A DNA stretch of 64,000 nucleotides from Rhodanobacter sp. (GTDB taxonomy: Bacteria; Pseudomonadota; Gammaproteobacteria; Xanthomonadales; Rhodanobacteraceae), in contig SCRO01000056.1 in the NCBI GenBank assembly GCA_004298505.1, positions 62,001 through 126,000 on the forward strand, read 5' to 3'. The translations under genes were made by a program, and so were the position numbers. Every line of letters begins with the position of its first letter. Position 1 is the stretch's first letter. The notes under the pieces were generated by a model. It ran no database searches and had not been told where the DNA came from. It was given only the letters and a program-made list of their open reading frames with translations. This document shows, piece after piece, positions 46,727 through 62,005 of the stretch.

Positions 46727-47236
46727 TCAATCCTTGAGGTATTCCTGCACCATCTGACGACCGCGGTAGATACGGCTCTTCACCGCTTCCCGGGTCAACA
46801 GCAGCTGGTCGGCAATCTCGCCGATCGAGAACTCCTCGAAATCGCGCAGGACGATGGCCTCGCGGTATTTTTCCGGCAGCGACTGGATCGCGGCGGCCAG
46901 ATCACTGCGCAGTTCGAAGTGATCGATGTACACCGCCACCGGCAGGTTCTCGCTCTCGGTGGCTCGCTCGCCGTGCATGGCACGCCAGAGACGATGGCAT
47001 TCGCGCCGCACGATCGAAAACGTCCACGCCGGAAACGCCGCCACCGTGCGCAGCGCGCCGATGCGTCGATAGATCAGCAACAGCGACTCCTGCACTGCAT
47101 CATCCGGATCCACGCCGGCCGCACATTGCGTATGCGCGATCCGGCTCAGATCCGGGCGGCAGGCGGCAAGCAAGTGTTCCACCGCCACGATGTCGCCTTG
47201 ACGCGCCGCATCCACCAAAGTTGGGTCGTGTTGCAT
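46727..47236 (-). CDS. ECF sigma factor
   Basis: A 169-residue sigma-70-type ECF factor. Region 2 has HTQCAAGVDPDDAVQESLLL and FSIVRRECHRLW; region 4 has SLPEKYREAIVLRDFEEFSI then GEIADQLLLTREAVKSRIYR, the helix-turn-helix. The ATG at 47236 has GAGGA at the correct distance; upstream starts at 47257 and 47287 are less likely, and 47287 lies in the promoter. The gene is preceded by the motif TGAATCC-N17-CTCTAT, also found before bufA and two other loci, so it is probably autoregulated and drives them. Confidence 0.9.
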   Translation of the reverse strand: MQHDPTLVDAARQGDIVAVEHLLAACRPDLSRIAHTQCAAGVDPDDAVQESLLLIYRRIGALRTVAAFPAWTFSIVRRECHRLWRAMHGERATESENLPVAVYIDHFELRSDLAAAIQSLPEKYREAIVLRDFEEFSIGEIADQLLLTREAVKSRIYRGRQMVQEYLKD

Positions 47237-47290
47237 CGTGTCCTCATACTGCGGCATCACCGCCGCATAGCGTAAGCGATTCTCCACTGA

Positions 47291-47320
47291 ATAGAGCAGC
47301 TCAGCAGTGGAAAGGATTCA
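47291..47320 (-). promoter_or_regulatory. ECF-type promoter of the sigma-factor gene
   Basis: On the minus strand: -35 TGAATCC (47314-47320), 17-bp spacer, -10 CTCTAT (47291-47296). The transcription start should fall about 10 bp downstream, before the ATG at 47236. Three more copies with identical spacing occur on the minus strand in this window. This copy and the bufA copy also share TTTCC directly after the -35 box. Confidence 0.75.
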
Positions 47321-47348
47321 AGTTCGGCAGCTTCGCAAAACGCCCGCG

Positions 47349-47864
47349 CTATTCGGCAACCGGCTGCGGCTTGGGCTGCGACCTGGCACCAGGCCAGAAC
47401 CGCTGGATCAGCCAATCGATCGAAAGCTTGCCCGGTCCCCAGGCGATCACGGCCAGCAGCATGATGGCCCAGATCTTGTGATCGGTGAAATCGCTGCCGA
47501 TCAGGCCGGCCCAGAAACCGTGTGGCCACAACGCCGAGTACGAGATCACCGCCATGATGTTGTAGACGAACAGGAACACAGCGGTCAGTCGTCCGGCAAC
47601 GCCAAAAACCAGTAGCCATGGCGTGATCAACTCGATCCACGTGCCGAGGAAGGCAGCCGTGTCAGGCGAGAGTAGCGGTACCTGGTACATGGTATTGAAC
47701 AAGAAGCTCGTGCCGTAAGGGTCGTCGAACTTGACCACGCCGGCGTGCCAGAACGCGAGCGCGACCCACACGCGCATCAACAACAAGACGACAGGGCCCA
47801 GCCAGTCGGTCGCAACCTGGGCGCCGCCAGTGTAGCCCGACGTCAGATATCGGAGCATGCGCAT
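47349..47864 (-). CDS. DoxX-family membrane protein of the bufferin operon
   Basis: A 171-residue protein with four transmembrane helices (VVLLLMRVWVALAFWHAGVV, then two helices around WIELITPWLLVFGVAGRLTA). It belongs to the DoxX family, which often accompanies DUF692/bufferin genes. The start at 47864 (MRMLRYL) overlaps the end of bufC by 22 bp. Its role in the system is unknown; a quinone-linked or thiol-linked redox role has been suggested for the family. Confidence 0.82.
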   Translation of the reverse strand: MRMLRYLTSGYTGGAQVATDWLGPVVLLLMRVWVALAFWHAGVVKFDDPYGTSFLFNTMYQVPLLSPDTAAFLGTWIELITPWLLVFGVAGRLTAVFLFVYNIMAVISYSALWPHGFWAGLIGSDFTDHKIWAIMLLAVIAWGPGKLSIDWLIQRFWPGARSQPKPQPVAE

Positions 47865-48658
47865 GATGAACTTTCCTCGGGTTGAACAGGGATGATTTCC
47901 GTGACGAGACTCGCAGCGACAAGACTCGTGATGCACGCCGGGAGATCGAAAGACGGATCCTGGGCGCTCGCTGCCGCGTGGGCGGCGTCCAGCGTGTCGC
48001 CGCGTGCCAGCGCATCGATGCAGGCAAAGCTGGCGCTGTCGATGGCCGCCATGGCCACTTCGCCTTCGCTGCGCCAGAGCACCACGCGATCACCGGATTC
48101 GGGGAGTGTCAAACGCTCTGCCGTCGGCTGCGTCGCGTATTGCCAAAGCGCGAGCACGGGATAGGCACTGACAAACCGCTGCATGCTGGGGTGCAACGCC
48201 ATTCGCGCCGCTCCCTCCAGCGCAGCCAGCCTGGACTCGAACTCTGCGCGGGTCAGCGCGCGGGTTTCGCTGGCCAATACCGCCACCTGACGCCGCCATT
48301 CCAGGCGCGCGACGTCGCCGAGATACGGGAATTGCTGCACGTTGGGCAACCGCTCCAGGCATTCGGGAAAGTGTTCCCCGAAGGCCTGAAGATTGCCGGA
48401 TCGGGACGGCTGCATGCACCGATAGTGCGCGGCAGCGTGCTCGAAAAACGCCTCGCCCACCAACGCGGCTACGGCAGGAAACGTCGTGCGCAGAGCCTCC
48501 AGGTGGATCAGTTCGCTATTGTGACGGTAGATGCGCAGGCGAGCGGCGGGTTCGATGCCGACGTCGACCAGTTGCTCGGTAGGCCCCGTTTCCTCGGCGT
48601 CGTAGAGTGCGTCAAGAAAGCAGCGCTGAAGGTCAAGCAGTGCAGGCGCGGTACGCAT
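47843..48658 (-). CDS. bufC: BufC-like partner protein (DUF2063-type N-terminal domain)
   Basis: A 271-residue protein with a HvfC/BufC-type N-terminal domain: IYRHNSELIHLEALRTTFPA and GEAFFEHAAAHYRCMQPSRS. In bufferin clusters this partner is thought to bind the precursor and bring it to the MNIO enzyme. The ATG at 48658 overlaps bufB by 26 bp; the longer frame to 48691 lies further inside bufB. The C-terminal part (about 170-271) is a poorly defined winged-helix-like region ending SSSCACSDI. Confidence 0.88.
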   Translation of the reverse strand: MRTAPALLDLQRCFLDALYDAEETGPTEQLVDVGIEPAARLRIYRHNSELIHLEALRTTFPAVAALVGEAFFEHAAAHYRCMQPSRSGNLQAFGEHFPECLERLPNVQQFPYLGDVARLEWRRQVAVLASETRALTRAEFESRLAALEGAARMALHPSMQRFVSAYPVLALWQYATQPTAERLTLPESGDRVVLWRSEGEVAMAAIDSASFACIDALARGDTLDAAHAAASAQDPSFDLPACITSLVAASLVTEIIPVQPEESSSCACSDI

Positions 48659-49505
48659 CGAGCACCTCCTCGGCGTGGGCCGCTTCGGCAAGCAGCACCT
48701 CCAGTTCGGGAATGTCCTGATCCCACTCGATCAGCGTCGGCACCGGCCCGAAGTACGCGATGGCCTCGGCATACAAGTCCCACACGGCGGCGTCCACCGG
48801 ACGGCTGTGCGTATCGATCAGCAGCGGCACCGCGAACTCATCCTTGCGCGTGAAGCCGGCCAGGTGGATTTCCCGTACGCGGTCGCGCGGCAGCGAATGC
48901 AGATAGGTGCGCGGATCAAAGCCGTGATTCACGCTGTTGACATAGATATTGTTGACGTCGCAAAGCAATCCGCATCCGCTGCGCCGGACTACTTCGGCGA
49001 CGAAGTCCCACTCGGTGTAGTCGCCATCCTGGAAACGCAGGTAGGTGGAGATGTTCTCGACCAGAAATTCGCGTCCCAACGTGTCCTGCACCTGGCTGAT
49101 TCGTGACGCCAGCAAGGCTACGGCCTCCTCGGTGAACGGCAATGGCAGCAAATCGTTGCTGTGACGCCCACCGACCGCACCCCAGCACAGATGCTCGGAT
49201 ACCAGCGCCGGCTGGTAGCGCTCCACCAGTTCCACCAAGCGCTTGAGGTGCAAGCTGTCCAAGGCGTCGGCGGAACCCAGCGAAAGCCCCACGCCATGCA
49301 GGCTCAGCGGATAGTCGGCGCGGATGCGCTCCATCGCTCCATGCAGGCTGCCGCCGGCGGCAAACAGATTTTCGCTGTGCACCTCGAACCACGGCACGCG
49401 GGGCCGCTCGCGCAACACCCGGCTCACGTGTGGGGCGCGCAAGCCGATGCCGGCCGCAGCCGGCATCGGGGAGGCACTCATGGCGATGATTTCTTCGTTC
49501 GACAC
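48633..49505 (-). CDS. bufB: MNIO-family (DUF692) peptide-modifying enzyme
   Basis: A 290-residue TIM-barrel enzyme of the multinuclear non-heme iron oxidative (DUF692) family. Metal-ligand regions are present: WFEVHSENLF, LSLHGVGLSLGS, LVSEHLCWG, FLVENISTYL, LLCDVNNIYVN, REIHLAGF, LIDTHSRP and IEWDQD. Known role of family members: oxidative modification of cysteine-containing precursor peptides, for bufferins giving thiooxazole-type groups that bind copper. It is 12 bp downstream of the bufA-like precursor and overlaps bufC. Confidence 0.92.
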   Translation of the reverse strand: MSNEEIIAMSASPMPAAAGIGLRAPHVSRVLRERPRVPWFEVHSENLFAAGGSLHGAMERIRADYPLSLHGVGLSLGSADALDSLHLKRLVELVERYQPALVSEHLCWGAVGGRHSNDLLPLPFTEEAVALLASRISQVQDTLGREFLVENISTYLRFQDGDYTEWDFVAEVVRRSGCGLLCDVNNIYVNSVNHGFDPRTYLHSLPRDRVREIHLAGFTRKDEFAVPLLIDTHSRPVDAAVWDLYAEAIAYFGPVPTLIEWDQDIPELEVLLAEAAHAEEVLDAYRACTA

Positions 49506-49517
49506 GGTGCCTGGGCC

Positions 49518-49838
49518 TCACATCGCTTTCTCGGTGCCGCCATCGATCTTCCCGCATAGGCCCGCCGGCAACGCCACGAACGCATTGGCATCACGCGCAT
49601 GGCTGTCCTGTCCGGCGCACGAGTGACCCGGCGACTTGCAATCGTTCTTGTACGCGGCATTGACGCCGTAACACAATTGCATATGATCTTTCTTCACCAT
49701 CGCCATCACGCGTTCTTGCTGCATCTTCATCTGCGCGGGCGTCATCTGCATCGGCGCCGCCGCGGCCATGGCGACCGATGCCCCGCCAAACGTCAGGGCG
49801 CCGACCAAAGCGGCCTTGAGTAGCTGAGTGCTGTTCAT
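49518..49838 (-). CDS. bufA: Bufferin precursor
   Basis: A 106-residue exported peptide. The signal sequence (about 1-26) ends in ASVAMAAAA. The mature part has four cysteines at 56, 67, 74 and 95 in the bufferin arrangement: [20 protein letters not shown] and LPAGLCGKI. In the family these are partly oxidised by BufB, and the product binds copper in the periplasm. The ATG at 49838 has GGAGA upstream; an in-frame start at 49883 lies inside the -10 box of the promoter and is rejected. The histidine/methionine-rich leader of the mature region ([19 protein letters not shown]) is also notable. Confidence 0.9.
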
Positions 49839-49881
49839 AGAGATGTCTCCGGTATGGTTGGCCGGGATGTTCCGGCAACTC

Positions 49882-49911
49882 ATAGAGCCGCCGAGCGTGG
49901 GAAAGGATTCA
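49882..49911 (-). promoter_or_regulatory. ECF-type promoter of the bufferin operon
   Basis: On the minus strand: -35 TGAATCC (49905-49911), 17-bp spacer, -10 CTCTAT (49882-49887), 44 bp before the bufA start. It matches the promoter of the ECF sigma gene box for box, so the sigma factor encoded downstream should transcribe bufABC-doxX. Confidence 0.78.
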
Positions 49912-50018
49912 TCTGATTGTCAACGGTGTGTCGCTGGTGTTCGACATGCTCGATTCGTGGCGTTGGCTGCGAGGTGAACGCGACATACCCGGGCATGCTC
50001 GCCGCGGGTTGGACGAAA

Positions 50019-51500
50019 TCACCTGAGCGGCACAGAACCTGACCGGGCGTGCGCGCCGGCAGCCGGCGCGGTGGTCTTCGACTCGTCACCCTGCAGCTCG
50101 CCCAGAAAGCTCCGGAACTCCGGCGCCTGCGTCAGCAACCGGGCAGCCAGGGCACGCAACGCATCGACCTGATCGGGGTGCAGATGAAACGTGGTCGGCA
50201 TCGCGTTGAAGCGCTGCCGCTCGGCGGGATCGGTGATCTGGTTGAACGTCAGTACGGCGAAATTCACGTCGACCTTTGCTGCGCCCGGCGGGCGCATCGC
50301 GTTGACGTGCCTCGCCCACATCATGAAGCCGCCCTTGGCCAGCGCTGCCGTCTCATTGTTGAGAATGCCCAAGGAGGCATCAAACGATGCGCGCAAGGTA
50401 TCGATGAGGTCGGGTCCGTGGCCGCTCCGCGACCAGGGATAGGGCGCATAGACCTGCGCATTGGCGACAACAACCAGCACATGCCGCACCCGACGCAGTT
50501 GTTCGGGCGTGAACGCGCCAGCCATGTCCGGTACGTTGCCGTACTGCGCCACCGGACTCATCATCGAGCCGCGCACGCCGAGATTGTCGGTAACACCGCC
50601 GTCGACCAGACGCAGGATCGGCATCTTTTTCGGGTCGTCGTAGCGCGACAGGGCCAGCGCCACGGCATAGCGGCGCGCCAGCAGGCTGTCGTGCGCCAGC
50701 GACTGCACCACCCACGGCTGGTGCCGTTGCGGGCAATCGGGATAATTGCGCAATGCAATCGGCGCGAACGGCCCCGGCACCGCCGCCGAGGCCATCACCG
50801 CGTTGGCCACCGGATAGGTCGACAGATCCGAGCACAGGAAATCGAACTGCGGCTGGATGAAGGAAAACGTGGTGGCATTGTTCAAATCGCTGGCATTGAG
50901 GATGATCATTGGCAGGCCGGCCGGCGACATGTCGGCGAACGTCTTGCCATCGAGCAGCGTGCGATTGAGGTAGGCGGCGACCAGGTCGCTGCGGTTGTAG
51001 TGGCGGCTGGCGATCGAGAGCAGATGATCGGGTCGCCGCAGCAAGCGCAGCAACTCGCCCTGCCAGTTGCGATACAGAAAACGGGAAGGAAAGTCGTCGA
51101 AAATGCGGTCGCCGAACAGGCCGTAATACGCTGCCGTGTAGCTGCCGCCGGATACCGAGGTGATCACGTCTACCAGATCGAGCAGCCGCGTCGGTTGCCC
51201 GTCCACATCGACGACGGTGTCACGCAGCTTTTCCAGCACGCCATAGCTGAACGCGGCCGCGCGGGTGCCGCCACCGGAGAAGGCAAGTACGATAAAGGTG
51301 TCGCGCGGCGGATGCGGGAACCGCGTCTTGAACTCGTAGCGATCTTCGACCCCGACCGGCTTGATCCGTGTGTTCCACACGCGCGTGGCGCAACCGGCCA
51401 ACCCGCACAGGGCGACGCCAAGCAACAGCCATCCCGTGCAGCGCCGGCGCCGCTGGCCAAATGCCGAACTGCTGGCTCGTCTCTGCGCCGTGTTCACCAT
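50019..51500 (-). CDS. Patatin-like phospholipase, lipoprotein
   Basis: A 493-residue protein. The signal region WLLLGVALCGLAGC carries a lipobox, so it should be membrane-anchored. The patatin core has the oxyanion loop FSGGGTRAAAFSYGV, the nucleophile serine in ITSVSGGSYTA (a variant of GxSxG), and the catalytic Asp in RLVDGGVTDNLG. It is a predicted lipid acyl hydrolase acting in the periplasm or at the outer membrane. No operon partner is evident. Confidence 0.88.
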   Translation of the reverse strand: MVNTAQRRASSSAFGQRRRRCTGWLLLGVALCGLAGCATRVWNTRIKPVGVEDRYEFKTRFPHPPRDTFIVLAFSGGGTRAAAFSYGVLEKLRDTVVDVDGQPTRLLDLVDVITSVSGGSYTAAYYGLFGDRIFDDFPSRFLYRNWQGELLRLLRRPDHLLSIASRHYNRSDLVAAYLNRTLLDGKTFADMSPAGLPMIILNASDLNNATTFSFIQPQFDFLCSDLSTYPVANAVMASAAVPGPFAPIALRNYPDCPQRHQPWVVQSLAHDSLLARRYAVALALSRYDDPKKMPILRLVDGGVTDNLGVRGSMMSPVAQYGNVPDMAGAFTPEQLRRVRHVLVVVANAQVYAPYPWSRSGHGPDLIDTLRASFDASLGILNNETAALAKGGFMMWARHVNAMRPPGAAKVDVNFAVLTFNQITDPAERQRFNAMPTTFHLHPDQVDALRALAARLLTQAPEFRSFLGELQGDESKTTAPAAGAHARSGSVPLR

Positions 51501-51525
51501 ACGCCCACCATACCGCTGTCCCGTA

Positions 51526-51807
51526 TCAGGCTTGCACGGTCACGCCTCGCCAGAACGCCACAAGGCCGCGAATTTCCGCTGCCGCCGACTTGGGCTCGGG
51601 GTAATACCACGCCGCCCCGGGGTTGACCTCCTCGCCAACGACCACATCGAAATAGCTGGCCGTACCCTTCCAGGGGCACACCGTGAGCTGAGTGCTGTCA
51701 CGGAAATGTTCACGCTTGAGCGACTCCGGCGGGAAATAATGATTGCCCTCGACGACCACGGTGTTGTCGCTCTCGGCGATGACGCAGTCTTTCCAGATGG
51801 CACGCAT
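51526..51807 (-). CDS. DUF427 domain protein
   Basis: A 93-residue beta-barrel-type protein with GNHYFPPESLKREHF, CPWKGTASYFDVVVG and AAWYYPEPKSAA, the pattern of DUF427. Function of the family is not established. It lies 15 bp downstream of the hydrolase/OsmC gene and is probably cotranscribed with it. Confidence 0.88.
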   Translation of the reverse strand: MRAIWKDCVIAESDNTVVVEGNHYFPPESLKREHFRDSTQLTVCPWKGTASYFDVVVGEEVNPGAAWYYPEPKSAAAEIRGLVAFWRGVTVQA

Positions 51808-51822
51808 GGTCTTCTCCTGGTT

Positions 51823-52818
51823 TCAGATTTGTTGATGACTCCCGGCGACCATGCGCAAGGTCATCGTGGTGCACGTGCCCAGGGCCGCCAGCAGATAGTC
51901 AAACGGACCGGGGCCGGCGTCGTTGCCGCCGACGCTGGTCGGCTCGTCGGCCAGCAAGTGATGCCGGCCGGCCTGCACCAGCTGGGTGTAGCGCCCGGTA
52001 CCGCTCTCGGTCACGCGTACCTGCCCCGCGGCCAGCACCGACGGTGGTGCCTGCTCGGGCAGGTACGGCGTCACCCACGCAGCGATCACACTGGCCGCAT
52101 ATGCGGCGTGCGCGCGACCGGTCAACAAGTGGTTGGCGCCATCCAGCGCCACGAAGCTCTTCGGATGTCTGGCTGCCTCGAAGATTCGCCGCGCCTGGTC
52201 GATATCGACCACTTGGTCCAGCGGCGCATGCATCACCAGTAGGGCGCAGCCCAGCGAGGTGATGCGCTCGTGCAGGCGTTGGGCCTTGAGGTCATCCAGA
52301 AACTGTCGTTGGATGCGAAACGGTCGGCCCGCCAGGCTCACGCCTACTTCGCGCTCGGTATCGAGCTTTGCCAGGGTGTCGTCACCCAGTTGCCTGGCGA
52401 CATGCAGCGGCTCGGACGGTGCCCCGAGGGTGACCACCGCACGCACTTCGGCGATGTCGTGCGCGGCCGACAACACCGCCGCACCGCCCAGGCTGTGCCC
52501 GATCAACAGCGTCGGTGCCTGGTGATTCTCGCGCAGGAAATCGGCTGCCTTCAGCAGATCGGCCACGTTGGAGCTGAAATTGGTGTTGGCAAATTCGCCC
52601 TCACTCAGGCCCAGGCCGGTGAAGTCGAAGCGCAGTACGGCAATGCCCTGCGCGTTCAGTGCGGCACTAATGCGCGAGGCGGCCAGCACGTCCTTGCCGC
52701 AGGTGAAACAATGCGCAAACAGCGCATACGCACGCGGCGGTGTCGGCGGCAGGTCGAGCCGGGCTGCCAGCAAACTGCCGTCGTAACCGGGAAACTCCAC
52801 GCGTTGTGCACCCATCAT
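51823..52818 (-). CDS. Alpha/beta hydrolase fused to a truncated OsmC-like domain
   Basis: A 331-residue protein. Residues 1-250 are an alpha/beta hydrolase with the nucleophile elbow LIGHSLGGAA and the catalytic His in DGANHLL. From about 270 it has an OsmC-like start (HHLLADEPTSVGGNDAGPGP then ALGTCTTMTLRM), but the chain stops after 331 residues where full-length fusions of about 400 residues continue with the second catalytic cysteine. The OsmC half is therefore incomplete and probably inactive in peroxide reduction. The hydrolase part looks intact. Confidence 0.85.
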   Translation of the reverse strand: MMGAQRVEFPGYDGSLLAARLDLPPTPPRAYALFAHCFTCGKDVLAASRISAALNAQGIAVLRFDFTGLGLSEGEFANTNFSSNVADLLKAADFLRENHQAPTLLIGHSLGGAAVLSAAHDIAEVRAVVTLGAPSEPLHVARQLGDDTLAKLDTEREVGVSLAGRPFRIQRQFLDDLKAQRLHERITSLGCALLVMHAPLDQVVDIDQARRIFEAARHPKSFVALDGANHLLTGRAHAAYAASVIAAWVTPYLPEQAPPSVLAAGQVRVTESGTGRYTQLVQAGRHHLLADEPTSVGGNDAGPGPFDYLLAALGTCTTMTLRMVAGSHQQI

Positions 52819-53285
52819 GTCGACTCCGTCATAGCTGGCTCAAGCTGAGCCGCATACTTCGAACATAGCCGATAGAGGTACCCACCGGCGCAAAAGGTTT
52901 ATCCGGCGACCGGCGCACATTCGCATGGCATCAGGCACTGAAGAACAGGTGATACGGCAGTTCCGGGAAACGCACGCCCACGGCCGCTACGGCGGCACCT
53001 CGCGAAAAATCCCCGTTTTGTTCCGCACGGAATGACATCGGCTTGGCCTCGCTCTGAGTGTGAGGACTCACCAGTGCAACCCGTGGGAGTCCATCGTGCG
53101 TCGAATGCCCGGTCTGCCAGGGCGGCAATCGGGTTGCGATGAGTGAGGACGCGTACAGCGGACCCGACAGGCTCGGGGTTCACGGCCCGGATTCGTGGGG
53201 GGAGTGGCCGTGAACTGATGTGTCCGCCGTACGACGTTCTCACCTCTATAGAGCAGGCCAACCCCCGATCGGATTCACCGCAGCA
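52819..53285. other. Intergenic region with an ECF promoter copy
   Basis: About 470 bp. Apart from the promoter copy at 53248-53277, it holds a possible 35-codon minus-strand frame (about 52931-53038) ending PELPYHLFFSA. This resembles the tail of a TonB receptor, but it is too short to call a gene. No other coding region is supported. Confidence 0.4.
53248..53277 (-). promoter_or_regulatory. Third copy of the ECF-type promoter motif
   Basis: On the minus strand: TGAATCC (53271-53277), 17-bp spacer, CTCTAT (53248-53253). The copy begins 9 bp beyond the araC stop codon. It points towards the hydrolase/OsmC and DUF427 genes, but with a 430-bp leader, so either a small gene lies between or part of the target has been lost. 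Confidence 0.6.
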
Positions 53286-54140
53286 TCACGACATACGCAG
53301 CGCCCCGGGCGAGCGACCGTGGATGCGCTTGAAGGCGCGGCTGAACGCTGCCTCGGTCGCATAGCCGGCGATCTCCGCCGCTTCGGCCACGCTGACGCCG
53401 CGCTCGGCCAGCGCCGCGTGTGCCTGTTGCATGCGCAAGGCGGTGACGTATTCCATCGGCGTGGTGCCCACCGATTGCGCAAAGCGGCGTGCAAATGCGG
53501 CGCGTGACAGGTGCACCTTGTCGGCCAGGCTGGCGACCGTCCACGGATGCTGGGGGTCCTGGTGCACGGCCAACAGTACGGGGCCAAGATAAGGGTCCGA
53601 GATGGCCCTCAGCAGCCCCTGCTCGACGGTGCCGGCAGCCAGGCACTGCCGCAGCGCGTACATGAACAGCGCGTCTGACAGCTTGTCCATCAGCGCGGCC
53701 GCACCCGGTCCATTGGTCTGCGCCTCGGCAATGATCAGCTGCAGCAACGCGGTCGGCGTGGCAGCAACCACGGGATCCGACGGCGAGGACTGCCGCAACA
53801 GGATTTGCGCCGGCAAGGATGCCAGCAACACCGCCGCCAGCGGCGATTCAAACTCGAAGTAACCGCAAAGCAACAGCGTGGTTGTACTGTCATCGGCATC
53901 GAGCGCCGCAATCAGGCGGTGCTCGCGGGGGCGGCTGAACAGTACCCCGTCGCCGCCCCGCAGCACCACATCGGCGCCGTCGTCGTCGGTGCGCAATACG
54001 CAATGCCCGGCGGCTACCAGGTGGAACATCGCCTTGCGCTCGTACTCCGCGTCCAGCACCCACTGCCCGCAATGCGTGCTGCGATGGAATACGCGCGCCT
54101 GCAGGCGCAGGTGACGCATCAATTCGCTCAGTTCATCCAC
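53286..54140 (-). CDS. AraC-family transcriptional regulator (cupin sensor)
   Basis: A 284-residue regulator. The N-terminal cupin domain (about 15-110) includes AMFHLVAAGHCVLR and GDGVLFSRPREHRL. The C-terminal AraC domain has two helix-turn-helices: TVASLADKVHLSRAAFARRF and VAEAAEIAGYATEAAFSRAF, then RIHGRSPGALR. It is divergent from the CMD/EthD genes beginning at 54277 and may control them. Confidence 0.9.
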   Translation of the reverse strand: MDELSELMRHLRLQARVFHRSTHCGQWVLDAEYERKAMFHLVAAGHCVLRTDDDGADVVLRGGDGVLFSRPREHRLIAALDADDSTTTLLLCGYFEFESPLAAVLLASLPAQILLRQSSPSDPVVAATPTALLQLIIAEAQTNGPGAAALMDKLSDALFMYALRQCLAAGTVEQGLLRAISDPYLGPVLLAVHQDPQHPWTVASLADKVHLSRAAFARRFAQSVGTTPMEYVTALRMQQAHAALAERGVSVAEAAEIAGYATEAAFSRAFKRIHGRSPGALRMS

Positions 54141-54276
54141 GGTGGCTCCAGATCAAGACGCAGGGACAAGCATGCGCGCGCTGCAGACATGGTCGCATCT
54201 CCGGCCGGCTGTCAAAGTATGCCCACGGCCACAGCGACATTCGATCGGCCGCCCATCCAACGAAGGAGTATGAACC

Positions 54277-54834
54277 ATGAGCGAATTTACCTTGCACACC
54301 CCTGACTCCGCACCCGAAGCAGCCCGCGCCATACTGCAGGGCGCCAAGAAACAAACGGGGTTCGTGCCCAACTTGTACGCCAACCTTGCCAACGCGCCAG
54401 CGGCCCTGGAAGCTTATGTCGGGCTCGGTGCACAGTTCGACAAGACCTCGTTCAACCCGGTGGAACGCCAGGTGGTGCTGCTGGCCGTCAGCGTGGAGAA
54501 TGGCTGCGAATTCTGCGTCGCCGCCCATTCGATGATCGCACGCAAGATCGCCAAGGCCCCCGATGCCGTCGTCGACGCGCTGCGCAACCGCACCAGCTTG
54601 CCGGACCCGCGGCTGCAGGCGCTGGCCGTGTTCACCCGCACCATGGTGAAGGAGCGTGGCTGGGTCACCGGCGCGCCACTGGAAGCCTTCATCAAGGCCG
54701 GCTTCACTCACCAGCAGGCGCTGGAGGTCGTGCTGGGCGTGACGATGAAGACACTCAGCAACTATGCCAACCACCTGACCGAAACCCAGACCAACGTCGA
54801 GTTTTCCAGTGAAGCCTGGAAGCGTCAGGCATAA
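54277..54834 (+). CDS. Carboxymuconolactone decarboxylase-family protein (AhpD-like)
   Basis: A 185-residue paralogue of the protein at 35082, with the same motif Cys77-x2-Cys80-x3-His84 (NGCEFCVAAHS) and the shared tail LEVVLGVTMKTLSNYANHLT. The start follows GAAGGAG. It is divergent from the araC gene and followed by an EthD-family gene. A thiol-peroxidase-like role is likely; the substrate is unknown. Confidence 0.87.
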   Translation: MSEFTLHTPDSAPEAARAILQGAKKQTGFVPNLYANLANAPAALEAYVGLGAQFDKTSFNPVERQVVLLAVSVENGCEFCVAAHSMIARKIAKAPDAVVDALRNRTSLPDPRLQALAVFTRTMVKERGWVTGAPLEAFIKAGFTHQQALEVVLGVTMKTLSNYANHLTETQTNVEFSSEAWKRQA

Positions 54835-54937
54835 ATGTCCTCTACACTGTAAAACAGCTGTCACACGAGGCGCCACGGTGCGCCGATGCGGGAGCGACCA
54901 AACCCCTGGTCGCTCCACCCTCTGCAAGGAGACACCG

Positions 54938-55258
54938 ATGATCAAGGTAAGCGTTATGTACCCCCATACTCCGGGCGCGCGATTCGACCATGCGTATTAC
55001 TGCAATACGCATATGCCGCTGGTGAAGAGTCGCATGGGCGAGAGCTGCCGGTTTTACACGGTGGACCAGGGCTTGGCGGGCGGATCGCCCGACACACCAC
55101 CGACCTACATTGGCATGAGCCACATATTCTGTGACTCGGTCGAAGCCTTCCAGGACGGCTTCGGGCCGCACGCCGCCGAACTCATGAAGGATCTGCCCAA
55201 CTTCACCGATATCGCCCCGGTGATCCAGGTCAGCGAGGTCCTGGTGGGTCGCGCCTGA
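54938..55258 (+). CDS. EthD-family protein
   Basis: A 106-residue ferredoxin-like alpha/beta protein: MIKVSVMYPHTPGARFDHAY, YCNTHMPLVKSRMG and GPHAAELMKDLPNFTDIAP are typical of the EthD family (dimeric alpha/beta barrel). The ATG is 8 bp after AAGGAG. Family function is poorly defined; members are linked to ether degradation and to small-molecule binding. A deletion scar of a second copy is present at 57808. Confidence 0.85.
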   Translation: MIKVSVMYPHTPGARFDHAYYCNTHMPLVKSRMGESCRFYTVDQGLAGGSPDTPPTYIGMSHIFCDSVEAFQDGFGPHAAELMKDLPNFTDIAPVIQVSEVLVGRA

Positions 55259-55503
55259 ACCGCTCGCAGCGACCTGCGTATCATTGCGAAGGCGAATGGT
55301 GGGTGCATGTTACGAGCGCAGGAGGCGATCGCCTGAGCCGGAACCGTCGTGGGTCGGCGGGGGCAGCTGAGCCAGTCCCATCGCACGGCTCAGTGGTTTT
55401 GGCATGTCGTTCGTGGGGAAACCTCAGGCTCTGACCCGCTTTGAGTCCGAGGCCCCTGACGAGGACGGAAGATGATGAAAGTGAAACAGTCGGCGGTGGC
55501 CCC

Positions 55504-56967: not shown

Positions 56968-57067
56968 ACATGCAGGCAAAACCCTTCTTCGTCAGGTACC
57001 GATACAGCCCGTAGCCGCAGGGGCCGGCCTCGTAGACGAAACGCACGGCGAGCCCTTGCTCGCTCAA
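56968..57067 (-). pseudogene. IS110-family transposase fragment
   Basis: Minus-strand translation gives VRFVYEAGPCGYGLYRYLTK followed by KGFAC, the conserved RFVYEAGPCGYGLYR core of IS110-family transposases. Only about 30 residues remain; both flanks belong to other genes. The fragment starts at the lpd-like stop codon and ends just before the truncated higB, so an IS110 insertion and later deletion probably removed the toxin's 5' half. Confidence 0.7.
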
Positions 57068-57087
57068 GCGAAAGTGATACTGTCTAG

Positions 57088-57222
57088 ACTGGTTTTCGCT
57101 TGCACCGTCTCAAGGGCGCCTTGCAAGCGCGCTGGTCGATTTCAGTCAATGGCAACTGGCGGATCACATTCGAGTTCAAAGACGGCAACGCCTACGTGCT
57201 CGACTACGAGGACTATCATTAA
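57088..57222 (+). pseudogene. higB: HigB toxin, 5'-truncated
   Basis: An in-frame stop at 57085 is followed by the C-terminal 44 residues of a HigB/RelE-type toxin: FRLHRLKGALQARWSISVNG, NWRITFEF and YVLDYEDYH. A complete HigB has about 92-95 residues, so the first ~50 are lost. It ends in a TAATG overlap with higA, as in intact higBA operons. The toxin should be inactive. Confidence 0.8.
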
Positions 57223-57515
57223 TGGCCATGTACAACCCTCCCCATCCTGGCGAGTTCATCACCAGCATCTACCTTGAGCCCAACGACATCAGTGGTCGCG
57301 AACTTGCGGCCAAGCTGGACGTGGCGGCTTCCACGCTCAGCCGCGTTCTCAACGGTACTAGTCGCGTTACGCCGGACATGTCGCTGCGGCTGTCCAAAAC
57401 TTTGGGCCGCTCGCCGGAGAGTTGGCTCACCATGCAAGCCAATCACGACCTTTGGGCTGCAAAGCAGCACGCCAATTTGCAACGGGTCAGCAAGCTCAAG
57501 TTGGCGATTGTCTAA
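57222..57515 (+). CDS. higA: HigA antitoxin (XRE-family helix-turn-helix)
   Basis: A 97-residue antitoxin: NPPHPGEFITSIYLEPNDIS and the helix-turn-helix LAAKLDVAASTLSRVLNGTS followed by MSLRLSKTLGRSPESW. It would normally neutralise HigB and repress the operon. The toxin is truncated, so this gene may persist as a repressor or as a passive remnant. Confidence 0.88.
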   Translation: MAMYNPPHPGEFITSIYLEPNDISGRELAAKLDVAASTLSRVLNGTSRVTPDMSLRLSKTLGRSPESWLTMQANHDLWAAKQHANLQRVSKLKLAIV

Positions 57516-57582
57516 CGATGGCTTCAGTTTTCACGGATTTCTTTACACGTCGGCAGACCTTGGTCTGTGACATATTTAGCTA

Positions 57583-57713
57583 TCAGCGTGCGGCATGTTG
57601 TATATGCCCATGTTTCAGCTTGTCGGCGGCTTCCGGAAGACTCCACAGGCTGCTCCAGACGCCGCCGCGGCGGCGGCGTTCCAGCAGAATGCGGTCGCAG
57701 GTGTCGCAGCATA
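57583..57713 (-). pseudogene. MutY C-terminal domain fragment
   Basis: Minus-strand translation reads CDTCDRILLERRRRGGVWSS then LWSLPEAADKL and stops soon after. This fits the start of the MutY NUDIX-like domain (VLLExRPxxGxWxGLWSLPE). Nothing else of MutY is present, so it is a short remnant. The match covers about 30 residues and should be confirmed by similarity search. Confidence 0.45.
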
Positions 57714-57743
57714 AGGGGACGGAACGCAGCACAAGGGGACGGA
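57706..57743 (+). repeat. Tandem 18-bp repeat (GCAGCAYAAGGGGACGGA)
   Basis: Two units, 57706-57723 and 57726-57743, differ at one base. They lie between the MutY remnant and the EthD remnant. Origin unknown. Confidence 0.6.
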
Positions 57744-57807
57744 GTGGATTAAGTCGGGTTTATCCCCTGCGTCGCCTGTCGCCTCGTCCATCTGCAAGGA
57801 AACACCG

Positions 57808-57872
57808 ATGATCAAGGTAAGTATGTTGCCTCCGTGATTCAAATAAGCGAAGTTCTGGTGGAGCGCGGCTGA
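57808..57872 (+). pseudogene. EthD paralogue with internal deletion
   Basis: The sequence upstream (TCTGCAAGGAAACACCG) and the first codons (ATGATCAAGGTAAG, MIKVS) match the intact EthD gene at 54938 almost exactly, and the end reads VIQISEVLVERG then stop, against VIQVSEVLVGRA in the intact gene. About 260 bp of the interior is gone and the two parts are out of frame. It is the remnant of a second EthD gene. Confidence 0.75.
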
Positions 57873-57920
57873 GAGGCTGCCATCCTGCCACCGACGTCCA
57901 CCTACCGAGGAACTCGCTCG

Positions 57921-58212
57921 TCAACTACCCCACCCTGAAGGGCGGAGCTTGTGCAAGCAGGCTAGGTTGACCAGGGAGAGAACGATGTAACCGCTGCATC
58001 GATCTACGTTACGGACAGGTCGTCAAGACGCACCAGCGAATGCTTCCTCAGTTCGTTGCTCTGCAAGGATCCGATCATGCTGGCGAAGGGCAAAGCGCCG
58101 AAGGTTGGGACCGCCGCGAAAGCGGGAGCCGGTTCGTGACATTCCCGAGGGGAGATGCACCGCAAGGTGCGCGTCACAAGGCCATTACGGGCATGTTTTT
58201 TGGAGATCCAGA
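57921..58212 (+). ncRNA. IscB omega-RNA (HEARO-type RNA), approximate limits
   Basis: The ~290 bp upstream of iscB are non-coding and highly structured. A hairpin CCCCACCC-TGAA-GGGCGGAG (57928-57947) is followed by further stems, such as GCACC-GCAA-GGTGC at about 58157-58170 and a GCCATTACGGGC loop close to the iscB start. This layout, an RNA immediately 5' of an IscB gene, is the known HEARO/omega-RNA organisation. By analogy the guide lies at the 5' end, from DNA just outside the element (about 57905-57920). Exact ends were not determined. Confidence 0.7.
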
Positions 58213-59625
58213 ATGGCCGTTTTCGTACTCGATACACATAAGGAACCGTTGATGCCGTGCAGCGAGAAGCGGGCGCGTCTGCTGTTGGGGCGTGGGCGTG
58301 CACGGGTCCATCGCTTGCGTCCGTTCGCCATCCGGCTGGTCGATCGACGGAAGGAAGACAGTGTGTTGCAACCCCTTCGCGTGGGGATCGACCCCGGCAG
58401 CAAGGTGACCGGCCTGGCGCTCTGCCGCGAGAGCGAAGCGGTGGACCGGATCACCGGTGAAGTCGCCACGACACGTCACACCCTTTTCCTCGCCGAGCTG
58501 CAGCATCGTGGACAGGCGATCCGCGATGCACTCACGCAGCGCGCAGGGTACCGGCGCCGCCGGCGCAACAGCCATCTTCGCCATCGCGCGGCGCGGTTCG
58601 ACAATCGCACCAGGCCGCCGGGGTGGCTCGCCCCGAGCTTGCAGCACCGAGTGGACACCACCGTGGCCTGGGTGAGCACGCTCTCGCGCCTCGCGCCGAT
58701 CAGCGCGATCGACCAGGAGCTGGTGCGCTTCGACATGCAGTCCATACAGAACCCCGATATTTCCGGTGTCGAGTACCAACAAGGCACGCTGGCCGGCTAC
58801 GAAGTGCGTGAATATCTGCTGGAAAAGTGGCACCGCCAGTGTGCCTACTGCGGTGCACAGAACGTGCCGCTGCAGATCGAGCACGTCCAGCCGCGATCCG
58901 TCGGCGGCAGCGATCGGGTGAGCAACCTCACCCTGGCCTGCGGAGCGTGCAATGCGGCCAAAGGCGCCCGGGACGTGCGCGTATTTCTCGCGCACAAGCC
59001 GGCGGTGCTCAAGCGTATTCCCGTACAGGCTACCGCACCACTGAAGGATGCCGCGGCCGTCAACGCCACGCGCTGGGCGCTTTTCAACGCGCTCAAGGGC
59101 CTTGGTCTTCCGGTCGAAGCGGCCAGCGGCGGACGCACGAAGTGGAATCGCACCCGACTGGGCGTGCCCAAAGCGCATGCGCTCGATGCCTTGTGCGTTG
59201 GTCGCATGGATGCGGTCGCGCATTGGCAGGTGCCGACTCTGGCGATCAAGGCCACTGGCCGGGGTAGTTACCAGCGTACCCGGGTGGATCGCTTTGGCTT
59301 TGCGCGGGGTTTTTTGATGCGGACCAAGTCCGTCCGTGGTTTCCAGACCGGTGATCACGTCAGCGCACGTGTGCCGGACGGAAAGAAGGTTGGCTTGCAC
59401 ATCGGGCGCGTCGCCGTTCGTGCCTCCGGCACCTTCAACATCCAGACGCCGCACGGCATCGTTCAAGGTATATCGCACCGGCACTGCCGTATGTTGCAGC
59501 GCGCCGATGGGTATGGGTATCAGTACGTAGCGCCACACCACAAGGAGAGCGAGAACGGGGGGCACGCGGCGCGTGCCGCGCTATCCCTCCCCGGCCAGAA
59601 CGCCGGGGTTTCTCGCGCAAAATGA
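58213..59625 (+). CDS. iscB: IscB RNA-guided endonuclease
   Basis: A 470-residue IscB. The PLMP domain is at the N terminus (VLDTHKEPLMPCSEKRARLL, residues 6-25). RuvC-I has Asp60 in VGIDPGSKVTGLAL; an arginine-rich bridge helix follows at 110-132; RuvC-II has Glu169 in DQELVRFDMQ. The inserted HNH domain (about 205-255) has Cys210/Cys213, the catalytic His224 in IEHVQPRS and Cys243/Cys246. RuvC-III has His322 and Asp325 in AHALDALCVG. All catalytic residues are intact. The start ATG 58213 is preceded by TGGAGA. The last ~20 residues run into the element's right-end hairpin. No tnpA transposase gene is nearby. Confidence 0.95.
   Translation: MAVFVLDTHKEPLMPCSEKRARLLLGRGRARVHRLRPFAIRLVDRRKEDSVLQPLRVGIDPGSKVTGLALCRESEAVDRITGEVATTRHTLFLAELQHRGQAIRDALTQRAGYRRRRRNSHLRHRAARFDNRTRPPGWLAPSLQHRVDTTVAWVSTLSRLAPISAIDQELVRFDMQSIQNPDISGVEYQQGTLAGYEVREYLLEKWHRQCAYCGAQNVPLQIEHVQPRSVGGSDRVSNLTLACGACNAAKGARDVRVFLAHKPAVLKRIPVQATAPLKDAAAVNATRWALFNALKGLGLPVEAASGGRTKWNRTRLGVPKAHALDALCVGRMDAVAHWQVPTLAIKATGRGSYQRTRVDRFGFARGFLMRTKSVRGFQTGDHVSARVPDGKKVGLHIGRVAVRASGTFNIQTPHGIVQGISHRHCRMLQRADGYGYQYVAPHHKESENGGHAARAALSLPGQNAGVSRAK
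59589..59608 (+). terminator. Hairpin at the right end of the IscB element
   Basis: A perfect 7-bp stem CCCCGGC / GCCGGGG around the loop CAGAAC, followed by TTTCTC. It overlaps the 3' end of iscB and lies just before the doxX start. It could be the right-end hairpin of the IS200/IS605-type element and may also act as a weak terminator. Confidence 0.55.
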
Positions 59626-60056
59626 TGAGCGCTACGAAACGCCTGAGTTTGTCACTGCTTGGGTTGCGACTGAGCGTGTTCCTGGTGATGCTGATGTGGA
59701 CTGTAGACAAGTTCCTCCGCCCCGAGCACGCCGCCGGCGTATTCGCCAACTTCTACGCCATGGGCGAGTTCGGCGCATCTGTATTCGTCACCCTTGGCGT
59801 ACTTGAACTATTGCTGCTGCTGGCCTTTGTCACCGGGTTTGCACGCCGCTACTCTTATGGCGCCGTGCTGCTGTTGCATGCCGGCTCCACCTTGGCTGCA
59901 TGGCAGCAATACCTGCACCCGCACGAGGGTGCCAATTTGCTGTTTTTCACCGCTTGGCCGATGTTGGCCGCGTGTCTCGCACTTTACTTGCTGCGTGACG
60001 CCGACAGCATGACGATCGACGGGCTCCGGGCGAGCACACGAAAGAGGAGTGAATAG
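59622..60056 (+). CDS. DoxX-like membrane protein
   Basis: A 144-residue protein with four transmembrane helices (LGLRLSVFLVMLMWTVDKF, VTLGVLELLLLLAFVTGFA, and two more). It resembles small DoxX-family proteins. The start ATGATG overlaps the iscB stop codon, which suggests the IscB element inserted just upstream and the gene may depend on readthrough or on a promoter inside the element. The following CMD-like gene overlaps by 1 bp. Confidence 0.75.
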   Translation: MMSATKRLSLSLLGLRLSVFLVMLMWTVDKFLRPEHAAGVFANFYAMGEFGASVFVTLGVLELLLLLAFVTGFARRYSYGAVLLLHAGSTLAAWQQYLHPHEGANLLFFTAWPMLAACLALYLLRDADSMTIDGLRASTRKRSE

Positions 60057-60610
60057 TGGGCTGGATCGACGAAGTTCCCGACGACGAAGCGCAGGGAGCG
60101 CTGCGCCAGATCTACGACGCCGTGAAGGCACAGCGCGGCCGGGTGGCACGCATCCTCAGCGTGCACAGCCTCGACCCGCCGGCGCTGCAGCACCACCTGG
60201 ACCTATACATGCACCTGATGTTCTCGCCCGGCCCGTTGAGCCGGCGCGAGCGCGAGGCCGTCGCGGTCACCGTGTCGGCCGGCAACGGCTGCGCCTATTG
60301 CGTGGCGCATCACATGGAGGCGCTGAAGCGTTACGAAAAGAACGAGGACGTGCTGACCGCGGTGCGCGATGCGCCGGAGCAACTGGCCACGCCGCGACTG
60401 CGCGCGATGCTGCTGTACGCGCGCCAGCTAACCCTTGCTCCGTCGACGATGGACGAAGCGCGAGTCGCGGCATTGCGCGCCGACGGGCTGACCGACCAGG
60501 ATATTCTTCGGATCAACCTGATCACCGCTTATTTCAATTTCGTCAACCGCATCGCGCTGGGCCTTGGCGTGGAGGCCGATGCGCAAGAGGTGGTCGGCTA
60601 CCATGTGTGA
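60056..60610 (+). CDS. Peroxidase-related carboxymuconolactone decarboxylase-family protein
   Basis: A 184-residue AhpD-like protein; GTG start at 60056 overlapping the doxX stop codon. The motif Cys79-x2-Cys82-x3-His86 is in GNGCAYCVAHHMEAL. It matches the uncharacterised peroxidase-related group more closely than the paralogues at 35082 and 54277. Coupled to doxX, so both probably serve one redox function. Confidence 0.85.
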   Translation: MGWIDEVPDDEAQGALRQIYDAVKAQRGRVARILSVHSLDPPALQHHLDLYMHLMFSPGPLSRREREAVAVTVSAGNGCAYCVAHHMEALKRYEKNEDVLTAVRDAPEQLATPRLRAMLLYARQLTLAPSTMDEARVAALRADGLTDQDILRINLITAYFNFVNRIALGLGVEADAQEVVGYHV

Positions 60611-60688
60611 GTCATTTTCCATGAAACAACCCACCGCCGCTCGACCGGAAGGAGTAGACGAGACCCTGGACCGGCGAGGGTTGCCGTA

Positions 60689-60931
60689 GTGTCGCCGCGC
60701 CGCGCCCTCGCCGTCATCCTGCATCCATCGCATCTGAAACGAACCTGCGTGGTGGCGCTGGTCGTGGGAGTCCTGCTGAGCCTGGTCAACCTCGGCGGGC
60801 AGTTGCTGACGGGGCCGTGGAACCTGCCGCTGGCGATCAAGATCGCCTTGAACGTGTTGACCCCGTTCGTCGTGGCAAATCTCGGCTTGATGTCACGACA
60901 AGGCGGCTCGGGAACGGATTCCCAGGGATGA
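60689..60931 (+). CDS. Small NrtS-like membrane protein
   Basis: An 80-residue protein with two hydrophobic helices (CVVALVVGVLLSLVNLGGQL and IALNVLTPFVVANLGLMS). The pattern GTLL-x-x-N-near-helix followed by KI(A)L(N)V(L)TPFVV resembles NrtS nitrate/nitrite transporter-like proteins. Start is GTG at 60689. No nitrate genes are nearby, so the function is tentative. Confidence 0.55.
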   Translation: MSPRRALAVILHPSHLKRTCVVALVVGVLLSLVNLGGQLLTGPWNLPLAIKIALNVLTPFVVANLGLMSRQGGSGTDSQG

Positions 60932-60977
60932 GCGATGCGGAAATCATCGTCAGTTCTGCGACAGCCGTCCGAGCCGG

Positions 60978-61712
60978 TCAGCGGTACTCGGGGTTTTCGA
61001 AATCGAACCGACTGCCGGCGTCCCAGGCGCGCCGCTGGTTGCCATGGGCCGGAATGCCACCCTGCGTCTTGAGCATCCGCGCCAGATGCATCAGGTTCCA
61101 AGCCATGAAGGTGGTGTTGCGGTTGGTGAAGTCGTTCTCCGGGCCGCCGGATCCCTCGTCCAGATAGGACGGACCGGGGCCTGCCTCGCCCAGCCAGCAG
61201 GCGTCGGCCTGCGGCGGGATCACATAGCCAAGATGCTGCAACGAATACAGCACGTTCATCGCGCAGTGCTTGGCGCCGTCTTCATTGCCGGTGACCAGAC
61301 AGCCGCCCACGCGACCGTAGTAGGCGTACTGTCCGGCCTGGTTGAGCAATCCGGAGGCGGCGTACAGGCGTTCGATGACGCGGGTGCAGACCGACGACTT
61401 GTCGCCCAGCCAGATCGGCGTACCGATCACCAGGATATCGGCCGCCATCACCTTCGTCAGCAGCGTCGGCCAGTCATCGTGGGCGGCGCCGTGTTCGGTC
61501 ATGTCCGGGTACACGCCCGGCGCCAAGTCGTACTCCACCGGGCGCACCAGTTCGGTCTGTACGCCGTGCTTTTCCATGATCGCGCGAGCAATGCGGATCA
61601 GTCCCTCGGTATGCGACAACGCCGGCGACGGCTTGAGCGTGCAGTTGAGAAAGATCGCTTTGAGCCCACCAAAATCGAGATCGACGTCAGTGACGTTTGT
61701 TGTGCTGGCCAT
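60978..61712 (-). CDS. Flavodoxin/NAD(P)H-dependent FMN reductase-family protein
   Basis: A 244-residue flavoprotein. AIFLNCTLKPSPALSHTEG is the FMN-phosphate loop region, then ADILVIGTPIWLGDKSSVCT and YYGRVGGCLVTGNEDGAKHC. The ATG at 61712 is preceded by AGGAGG. It is preceded by a copy of the ECF promoter motif (61789-61818), so it should belong to the bufferin sigma-factor regulon. Probable reduction of quinones, flavin or metal-bound thiols. Confidence 0.87.
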   Translation of the reverse strand: MASTTNVTDVDLDFGGLKAIFLNCTLKPSPALSHTEGLIRIARAIMEKHGVQTELVRPVEYDLAPGVYPDMTEHGAAHDDWPTLLTKVMAADILVIGTPIWLGDKSSVCTRVIERLYAASGLLNQAGQYAYYGRVGGCLVTGNEDGAKHCAMNVLYSLQHLGYVIPPQADACWLGEAGPGPSYLDEGSGGPENDFTNRNTTFMAWNLMHLARMLKTQGGIPAHGNQRRAWDAGSRFDFENPEYR

Positions 61713-61780
61713 GCTGACCTCCTGAGCCGTAGGAAAGGGAGTGTTTGTGCACCGCTCTATTCTGCATGAGCCCAAGCGGG

Positions 61781-62005
61781 TTACCCGAATAGAGGCGAGA
61801 TAGCGAGAAAGGGATTCACCGGCGCGCGCTTCCACCCGTTGGAGATTGTGCGGTCGCCAATGTTCAACCACGCCAATACGCCATGGGTGGCCATGTACGC
61901 GGCGATGCCGGCGGCGCCGGTGATCTTGGCGATACCGCTGGGAATAAAGAACGCGGCAAAGAGGATGCGTCCGACCAGTGCGAGCGCGTTGTGGATGATA
62001 TTCAT
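61781..62005 (-). pseudogene. DoxX-family protein, 3'-truncated
   Basis: Begins [20 protein letters not shown] then IPSGIAKITGAAGIAAYMAT, the first helix and loop of a DoxX protein (normally 130-140 residues). After about 48 residues the sequence changes to unrelated residues and stops. The divergent part contains the ECF promoter copy for the downstream gene. The start overlaps the truncated wrbA stop (ATGA). Confidence 0.7.
61789..61818 (-). promoter_or_regulatory. Fourth copy of the ECF-type promoter motif
   Basis: On the minus strand: TGAATCC (61812-61818), 17-bp spacer, CTCTAT (61789-61794), about 80 bp before the flavodoxin-family gene start at 61712. It is inside the decayed end of the doxX remnant. 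Confidence 0.7.

Follow-up and report, generated by a model that had tools for sequence, protein, structure and literature searches.

Four copies of an extracytoplasmic function promoter-like motif point to a putative regulon joining a bufferin operon, its sigma factor gene and dispersed redox genes in Rhodanobacter

Bufferins and related copper-binding peptides were discovered only recently, and their regulation is known in few species. Control of bufferin operons by extracytoplasmic function (ECF) sigma factors is already known. According to the portions available of the papers cited here and below, sigma-F of Caulobacter crescentus controls DUF2282-DUF692-DUF2063-DoxX operons (CC3254-3257 and CC2907-2905), in part its own gene, and the gene of a YedY-type oxidoreductase, with the motif GTAACC-N16-CGAA and with NrsF (DUF1109) as negative regulator (PMC3511200). 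RpoE7 of Sinorhizobium meliloti, whose anti-sigma factor is EcfR7, controls a DUF692 and DUF2063 operon and its own gene (PMC6180224). The copper- and gold-induced rpoQ-rsqA/gigPABT locus of Cupriavidus metallidurans has a bufferin-type operon beside an ECF sigma gene, and an RpoQ-dependent start at gig had not been shown there (PMC10304878). Sigma-E/MseR of Neisseria and RpoE2/HrsE of Haemophilus exert ECF control over a DoxX/DUF2063/UPF0276 operon and redox repair genes (PMC2893595, PMC7907618), and in a survey of MNIO clusters those of the Buf1 type were reported to include genes for sigma factors and NrsF (PMC12452194). RpoS instead of an ECF factor is indicated for the Legionella GIG operon (PMC5413113), and a FecI/FecR-like pair accompanies the methanobactin operons of Methylosinus (PMC3621798). 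The CorE-type sigma of Myxococcus is a copper-responsive, cysteine-based ECF factor without anti-sigma factor; the words DUF692, DUF2063, DUF2282 and DoxX are absent from the portion available of the review that covers such factors (PMC8999054). Here we analyse a 64,000-nucleotide (nt) stretch of Rhodanobacter DNA, hereafter called the window (C120:62001-126000, on a contig of 241 kb), in which an ECF sigma gene, a bufABCD operon and more distant redox genes are preceded by copies of the motif TGAATCC-N17-CTCTAT.

The motif is found four times in the window, always on the minus strand, with identical boxes and a spacer of exactly 17 bp, as the original prediction had reported. The four copies and the genes nearest to the argument are as follows.

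47291-47320, minus strand: promoter 1, TGAATCC-N17-CTCTAT, 54 nt upstream of the sigma ATG, suggestive of autoregulation; also found before the sigma gene in relatives
46727-47236, minus strand: ECF sigma factor of 169 residues, Pfam Sigma70_r2 and Sigma70_r4_2, start set by alignment
49882-49911, minus strand: promoter 2, TGAATCC-N17-CTCTAT, 43 nt upstream of the bufA ATG
49518-49838, minus strand: bufA, bufferin precursor (DUF2282), Pfam PF10048, 57.5 bits
48633-49481, minus strand: bufB, MNIO bufferin maturase, NCBIfam MNIO_BufB, 384.5 bits for a cut-off of 310
47843-48658, minus strand: bufC, DUF2063 partner protein, Pfam PF09836
47349-47864, minus strand: bufD, DoxX membrane protein, Pfam PF07681
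53248-53277, minus strand: promoter 3, TGAATCC-N17-CTCTAT, 8 nt behind an AraC-type gene, in the same place in several relatives
61789-61818, minus strand: promoter 4, TGAATCC-N17-CTCTAT, 76 nt upstream of the ATG of the flavin mononucleotide (FMN) reductase gene
60978-61712, minus strand: NADPH-dependent FMN reductase-like protein of flavodoxin fold, Pfam PF03358

The four sites are very probably promoters recognised by RNA polymerase when it is loaded with the ECF sigma factor of 46727-47236, and together with further copies they would define its regulon. The sigma protein harbours sigma2 and sigma4 domains without sigma3 (Sigma70_r2, 36.4 bits; Sigma70_r4_2, 58.5 bits; both over the Pfam cut-offs), which is the domain composition of ECF (group IV) factors. 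Its acidic DPDD region is intact, and the protein ends with sigma4, with no extension. The original prediction had placed copies of the motif ahead of the sigma gene, bufA and a flavodoxin-family gene, and these assignments stand at the distances listed above; the start of sigma is corrected from GTG 47287 to the ATG at 47236, aligned in 17 of 18 orthologues.

The motif is rare. The G+C content of the window lies between 58 and 67% in 4-kb steps, and 100 dinucleotide-preserving shuffles of it contained no match. In the whole genome (G000; 3,776,620 bases in 139 contigs, 99.6% complete), a search with the spacer free from 15 to 19 bp gave five exact matches, every one with a 17-bp spacer and all on C120, for a chance expectation of approximately 0.03 as estimated from the base composition of the window; the reversed control motif gave none. 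The motif is thus not at random frequency genome-wide, the outcome that had been named beforehand as speaking against it. The fifth copy, at C120:172902-172931, lies 45 nt upstream of a short-chain dehydrogenase/reductase (SDR) gene. Allowing up to two mismatches yielded 16 matches versus 4 for the reversed control. The only one with a single mismatch, TGAATCT...CTCTAT at C120:142790-142819, is located 69 nt upstream of a gene for a secreted DUF302 protein, and it is counted as a real member of the regulon. The ten matches with two mismatches, one of which, on C11, overlaps the start of a Maf-like coding sequence, resemble background and were set aside.

All six sites (five exact and one with one mismatch) fall within 64 kb of C120, a clustering that could reflect the recent duplication of one promoter-bearing segment, if not chance. 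However, the flanks and the spacer sequences differ among the four window copies, in relatives the copies are spread over different contigs or separated by 231 kb, and the shuffles and the reversed control gave no match, which makes chance or duplication a negligible prospect. The view that such identity at a fixed spacing is unlikely to be fortuitous, already expressed in the original prediction, is therefore borne out.

The motif is co-inherited with the sigma gene. We surveyed 233 genomes of the family, using profile A1 at E<=1e-40 to collect sigma genes and scoring at most 15 candidates per genome. This search of related genomes, which had been suggested from the outset, found the exact motif in 19 genomes and the sigma gene in 27; all 19 genomes with the motif carry sigma, and none of the 206 sigma-less genomes contains an exact copy (Fisher p 6e-22), with the reversed control pattern present in 1 of the 233. 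A search of 60 genomes, the window's own included, in which every candidate was scored, agrees with the family survey save for divergent members reached only by the profile: close sigma orthologues (E below 1e-70) are present in 11 genomes and the exact 17-bp motif in nine, all among those 11, while other genomes gave four further matches, with 16-, 18-, 18- and 19-bp spacers. With one mismatch allowed, a search of 36 genomes of the genus found 36 sites in the 11 that bear sigma (control, 3) and 14 in the 25 that do not (control, 7).

As these genomes hold several ECF sigma genes, the boxes might be real and yet be owned by another, co-inherited ECF factor. Other ECF genes, approximately 23-40% identical, are nevertheless listed for sigma-less genomes too, their co-occurrence with the motif having been left unscored gene by gene, and the motif often lies directly before the sigma gene considered here. 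We regard ownership by another factor as highly improbable.

The position of the site before orthologous genes was then compared across loci taken from the window, the named contigs and the relatives. Promoters present more than once were counted once, hits spanning <40% of a gene were discarded, genes truncated at the end of a contig (bufA of L083, for example) were not scored, and start codons were set from the alignment. Of 23 distinct bufA genes, 22 have a site with at most one mismatch 41-56 nt upstream of the start codon, and the remaining one has a site with two mismatches at 105 nt. A site with at most one mismatch also precedes 15 of 31 sigma genes, at 54-63 nt in 12 cases and at 152-268 nt in 3. 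By comparison, no site was found before the operon-internal bufB (0/24) or before matches to the oxidoreductase gene that follows sigma (0/23, four of which are distant paralogues). The boxes are conserved at this fixed spacing: information content across the 22 bufA promoters is 1.4-2 bits in the columns of the boxes and at most 0.5 bits in the 15 columns upstream, and 21 of the 22 have TGAATC[CT], or a one-mismatch form of it, followed by TTT. In four contigs labelled betaproteobacterial, sigma comes after bufABCD and the motif (0-1 mismatch) is still present before bufA; the names attached to these contigs (Castellaniella, Burkholderiaceae, Burkholderiales and Pandoraea) are those of metagenome bins, to which some contigs may have been wrongly assigned. 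The genome-wide count, the co-occurrence with sigma and the fixed position before bufA all support the earlier proposal that ECF promoters define a regulon extending beyond gene order.

The features around promoter 3, which concern both the extent of the regulon and an alternative owner of the motif, are the following.

52872-52901, minus strand: degenerate second promoter TAAACCT...CTCTAT, three mismatches, 53 nt upstream of the hydrolase ATG
51823-52818, minus strand: alpha/beta hydrolase with a truncated OsmC domain (OsmC positions 1-31 of 100, 26.9 bits for a cut-off of 27.5)
51526-51807, minus strand: DUF427 protein, whose gene follows the corresponding site in relatives
50019-51500, minus strand: patatin-like gene, next in the row in the same orientation
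53286-54140, minus strand: AraC/cupin regulator beside promoter 3

Promoter 3 points toward the row of hydrolase/OsmC, DUF427 and patatin-like genes, approximately 430 nt downstream, and a tandem second site behind the first also occurs in L079, L117 and L173. The AraC-type gene abuts promoter 3, as do its counterparts in several relatives, and the motif might therefore be the operator of this protein or of another DNA-binding regulator. The AraC gene (E<=1e-60, at most 10 candidates scored per genome) was found in 14 of the 233 family genomes, 13 of which have the exact motif, and its copy in L162 resembles the reactive-chlorine regulator RclR (116 bits for a cut-off of 400). Nevertheless, it was not found in 6 of the 19 motif genomes (G005, G012, G020, G024, G128 and G186), all of which carry sigma, and G193 has the AraC gene without the motif. 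It was not seen either in the four betaproteobacterial-type loci or in L086, all of which keep the motif before bufA. The AraC gene thus appears to travel with the regulon but to track the motif less well than sigma does. Moreover, the -35 and -10 boxes are asymmetric and promoter-like, with a fixed 17-bp gap and a set distance to the bufA starts, which does not fit an AraC operator well. This weakened alternative is in our view very unlikely, and recognition of the boxes by the ECF sigma factor accounts better for the distribution.

Several observations weigh against the sigma-dependent regulon. Directly upstream of 13 of the 31 sigma genes there is no recognisable site (>=4 mismatches). Among the 16 sigma genes without a site of at most one mismatch, L111, L178 and L176 have sites with two or three mismatches. 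Of the 13, nine are accounted for by an operon or a preceding gene: L078, L082, L084, L087, L166 and L177 follow bufABCD in one orientation, and L162-L164 lie behind another site-bearing gene, weakly PagL-like and below the cut-off in the two tested. In two others, L077 and L171, the site has decayed, and neither L115 nor L180 fits any such account. The target genes vary among species. Eight of the 27 sigma-bearing family genomes lack an exact copy, six of these having one-mismatch copies and two a partial sigma gene only, and the exact copy of G128 lies 16 kb from a divergent sigma gene and may be a chance match. Scoring 15 or fewer candidates of each genome may also have missed a sigma gene. 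Lastly, there may be an unlinked or unfamiliar anti-sigma factor.

In relatives, sites precede genes for AhpC/TSA peroxiredoxins (L107, L170), CBS-domain proteins (L109, L168), a PHO4-type transporter (L163), DUF302 proteins (L168, L175) and a DUF6789 protein whose gene is unlinked to sigma (L167). Two genes behind one-mismatch sites, L106:2846-3172 and L108:7652-7915 (minus strand), code for small secreted Cys-rich proteins with KCG units that match no family, and these are candidates for further metallophore precursors. Our script found no convincing gene behind the sites of L112, L115, L164 (17507) and L170 (4668). The regulon thus likely comprises sigma, bufABCD, the DUF427/hydrolase operon and the genes for the FMN reductase, DUF302 and SDR proteins, to which relatives add peroxiredoxin and Cys-rich peptides. 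As judged from the gene contents, its theme is thiol, redox and metal stress, with copper or a thiol oxidant as the presumed signal.

The gene content of the bufferin operon, namely a DUF2282 precursor with MNIO, DUF2063 and DoxX genes, is that of Buf1 as far as genes alone can tell. The bufA product has a signal peptide and four Cys residues, as counted by eye, and it scores 28.3 bits with the NCBIfam BufA2 model, under the cut-off of 60. In phylogenetic trees, the window sigma pairs with that of L073 (support 100/97), whose bufB sits in the Rhodanobacter-type clade. In contrast, the window bufB falls in the opposite clade with betaproteobacterial-type copies (split 100/100), which the window bufC also joins (100/99). 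This conflict between the bufB and bufC trees and the sigma tree indicates that a bufferin operon of another type has come under the same promoter boxes.

In the bufA leaders of many relatives (window 49840-49881, minus strand), an inverted CCGGA...TCCGG is found just behind the -10 box, and it might form a hairpin or act as a second operator. Folding 17 leaders to a consensus gave only three pairs, located elsewhere, and no compensatory changes, and we do not claim an RNA hairpin.

The genes downstream of sigma bear on how its activity might be controlled.

46198-46650, minus strand: DUF6789 membrane protein, accessory, behind sigma, Pfam PF20587
43965-46106, minus strand: VTT membrane domain fused to a flavin adenine dinucleotide (FAD) disulphide oxidoreductase, MerA/RclA-like, below the cut-offs of those models (RclA, 205.7 bits for a cut-off of 740)

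The oxidoreductase gene comes after sigma in many relatives. As judged from the neighbours, NrsF and DUF6789, sigma has no recognisable anti-sigma gene next to it. Among 19 sigma-bearing genomes, that of the window and 7 others gave no match to NrsF (PF06532), and the remaining 11 carry it on another contig or >0.8 Mb from sigma. Sigma might still be held by an unrecognised anti-sigma factor such as the DUF6789 membrane protein, as NrsF does with sigma-F in Caulobacter. DUF6789 follows sigma here, and in the genus it scores over the cut-off in 9 of 27 sigma-bearing genomes versus none of the 22 sigma-less ones searched, which shows that it is associated with sigma but not obligatory. In G203, the DUF6789 gene is found on a contig other than that of sigma, approximately 310 nt behind its own exact site. 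Nevertheless, 18 of the 27 sigma-bearing genomes lack a DUF6789 protein over the cut-off. In the betaproteobacterial-type loci L078, L082 and L087 the genes past sigma look mercury-type or are on the opposite strand, and no conserved neighbour besides the peptide genes was seen in these three or in the sister locus L210 (frames judged by eye). The genome distribution leads us to reject both DUF6789 and NrsF as obligatory anti-sigma factors, and we consider it unlikely that an unrecognised factor of this kind holds sigma.

A profile search in 398 genomes of the order found 34 with a hit at E<=1e-40 (6 in the same family, 27 in family f2 and 1 in family f4), and in 369 genomes of the class it gave 1 hit besides the window's own genome. 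At 25 of the 28 distinct loci outside the family, all from f2 and with sigma proteins 43-50% identical to that of the window, EGKCG-type repeats are encoded directly behind sigma; the other three were excluded from the promoter and cysteine counts. In L210, sigma comes first in the row and no anti-sigma gene was seen in that row. The precursor has EF-hand motifs (Pfam) and scores 54.8 bits with the HvfA-family repeat model (cut-off 19.5) and 57.7 of 95 with the full HvfA model, and the gene next to it codes for an HvfB-type MNIO (436.6 bits, over 360). The sequence CGAATCC-N17-CTCTT, with at most two mismatches, is present upstream of sigma in 18 of the 25 loci, versus 0-5 of 25 at spacings of 13-16 and 18-21 bp and 0.8% in simple base shuffles; the consensus was picked after viewing 12 of the loci, 11 of which pass, as do 7 of the 13 unseen ones. 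These counts indicate that the -35 box and the spacing are broadly kept and that the -10 box differs.

Two Cys residues of sigma region 2 are conserved. Among 35 sigma orthologues, 34 have Cys38 and all have Cys80; in a set of 22 other ECF proteins the counts are 9 for Cys38 and 3 for Cys80, and hits of 45-55% identity were placed in neither set. The sole exception for Cys38 is a partial gene read past its real start. Both residues are also found in the 25 EGKCG-linked sister sigma proteins, in which Cys26 is not kept (Ser in 25/25). On this basis, direct sensing of thiols or metals can be put forward as a hypothesis to test, not as a result. An AlphaFold2 model of sigma built with 18 close orthologues had a mean predicted local distance difference test score of 58.5, too poor for the Cys38-Cys80 distance, and was not used.

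In the mechanism that we propose from these genomic data, the sigma factor would bind the sites and switch on its own gene, bufABCD and the dispersed thiol/redox genes, which would couple the production of a periplasmic copper-binding peptide to that of redox repair functions. In place of a linked anti-sigma factor, the controlling element would be sigma itself, with Cys38 and Cys80 perhaps involved, or else an unlinked regulator. A broader proposal, which we put forward only tentatively and think rather doubtful as a whole, is that an anti-sigma-free ECF lineage, sensing copper or thiol oxidants via these two residues, commands MNIO-made copper metallophores, i.e., bufferins in the family of Rhodanobacter and HvfA-like EGKCG peptides in a sister family. 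Its two short boxes would let foreign operons plug in, as may have happened here with the betaproteobacterial-type bufferin operon under a Rhodanobacter-type sigma.

A few further features of the window were noted. A truncated doxX-like frame (61781-62017, minus strand) has its end overlapping promoter 4. Two carboxymuconolactone decarboxylase-family genes (54277-54834 and 60056-60610, plus strand), together with an EthD gene, are divergent from the AraC gene and are found beside the regulon in several relatives. An IscB-like gene (58105-59625, plus strand) codes for an RRXRR domain (235 bits) and HNH nuclease domains.

No description of this motif, layout or regulon was found in the open-licence PubMed Central papers searched, including those on Rhodanobacter with copper, ECF or DUF692. 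Against the known ECF control of bufferin operons, what appears new is this motif, together with a broad putative regulon, a sigma gene beside which no anti-sigma gene was recognised, and a sister lineage that heads HvfA-like operons. The promoter signature lets co-regulated genes, and hence the stress that is answered, be read from genomes, and it points to further Cys-rich peptides as candidate metallophores.

As far as the available portions of the cited papers go, a close parallel is with Caulobacter sigma-F, also an ECF factor, which has bufferin operons and in part its own gene as targets. Unlike that system, the one described here has a larger number of putative target operons and a genome that lacks NrsF, and its conserved boxes are TGAATCC-N17-CTCTAT rather than GTAACC-N16-CGAA, the latter not having been the object of a dedicated search. 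The listed promoters of Sinorhizobium RpoE7 read TGTAAC... where those found here read TGAATCC..., and EcfR7 is present there. The Cupriavidus locus differs by its divergent layout and by RsqA, a predicted membrane anti-sigma factor (PMC10304878). In Neisseria and Haemophilus anti-sigma factors are present (MseR and HrsE), and the Neisseria motif consists of GTMAGBWTT, 12-13 nt and CGTCTAAH. All five of these ECF systems thus have a described or predicted anti-sigma factor or negative regulator. CorE senses via a C-terminal Cys-rich domain and a CxC in the linker (PMC8999054), whereas the window sigma has neither a C-terminal Cys-rich extension nor a CxC, and instead keeps two Cys residues in region 2. 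If the proposal is true, an ECF factor with neither a dedicated inhibitor nor a sensor domain would represent a compact and portable metal/redox switch.

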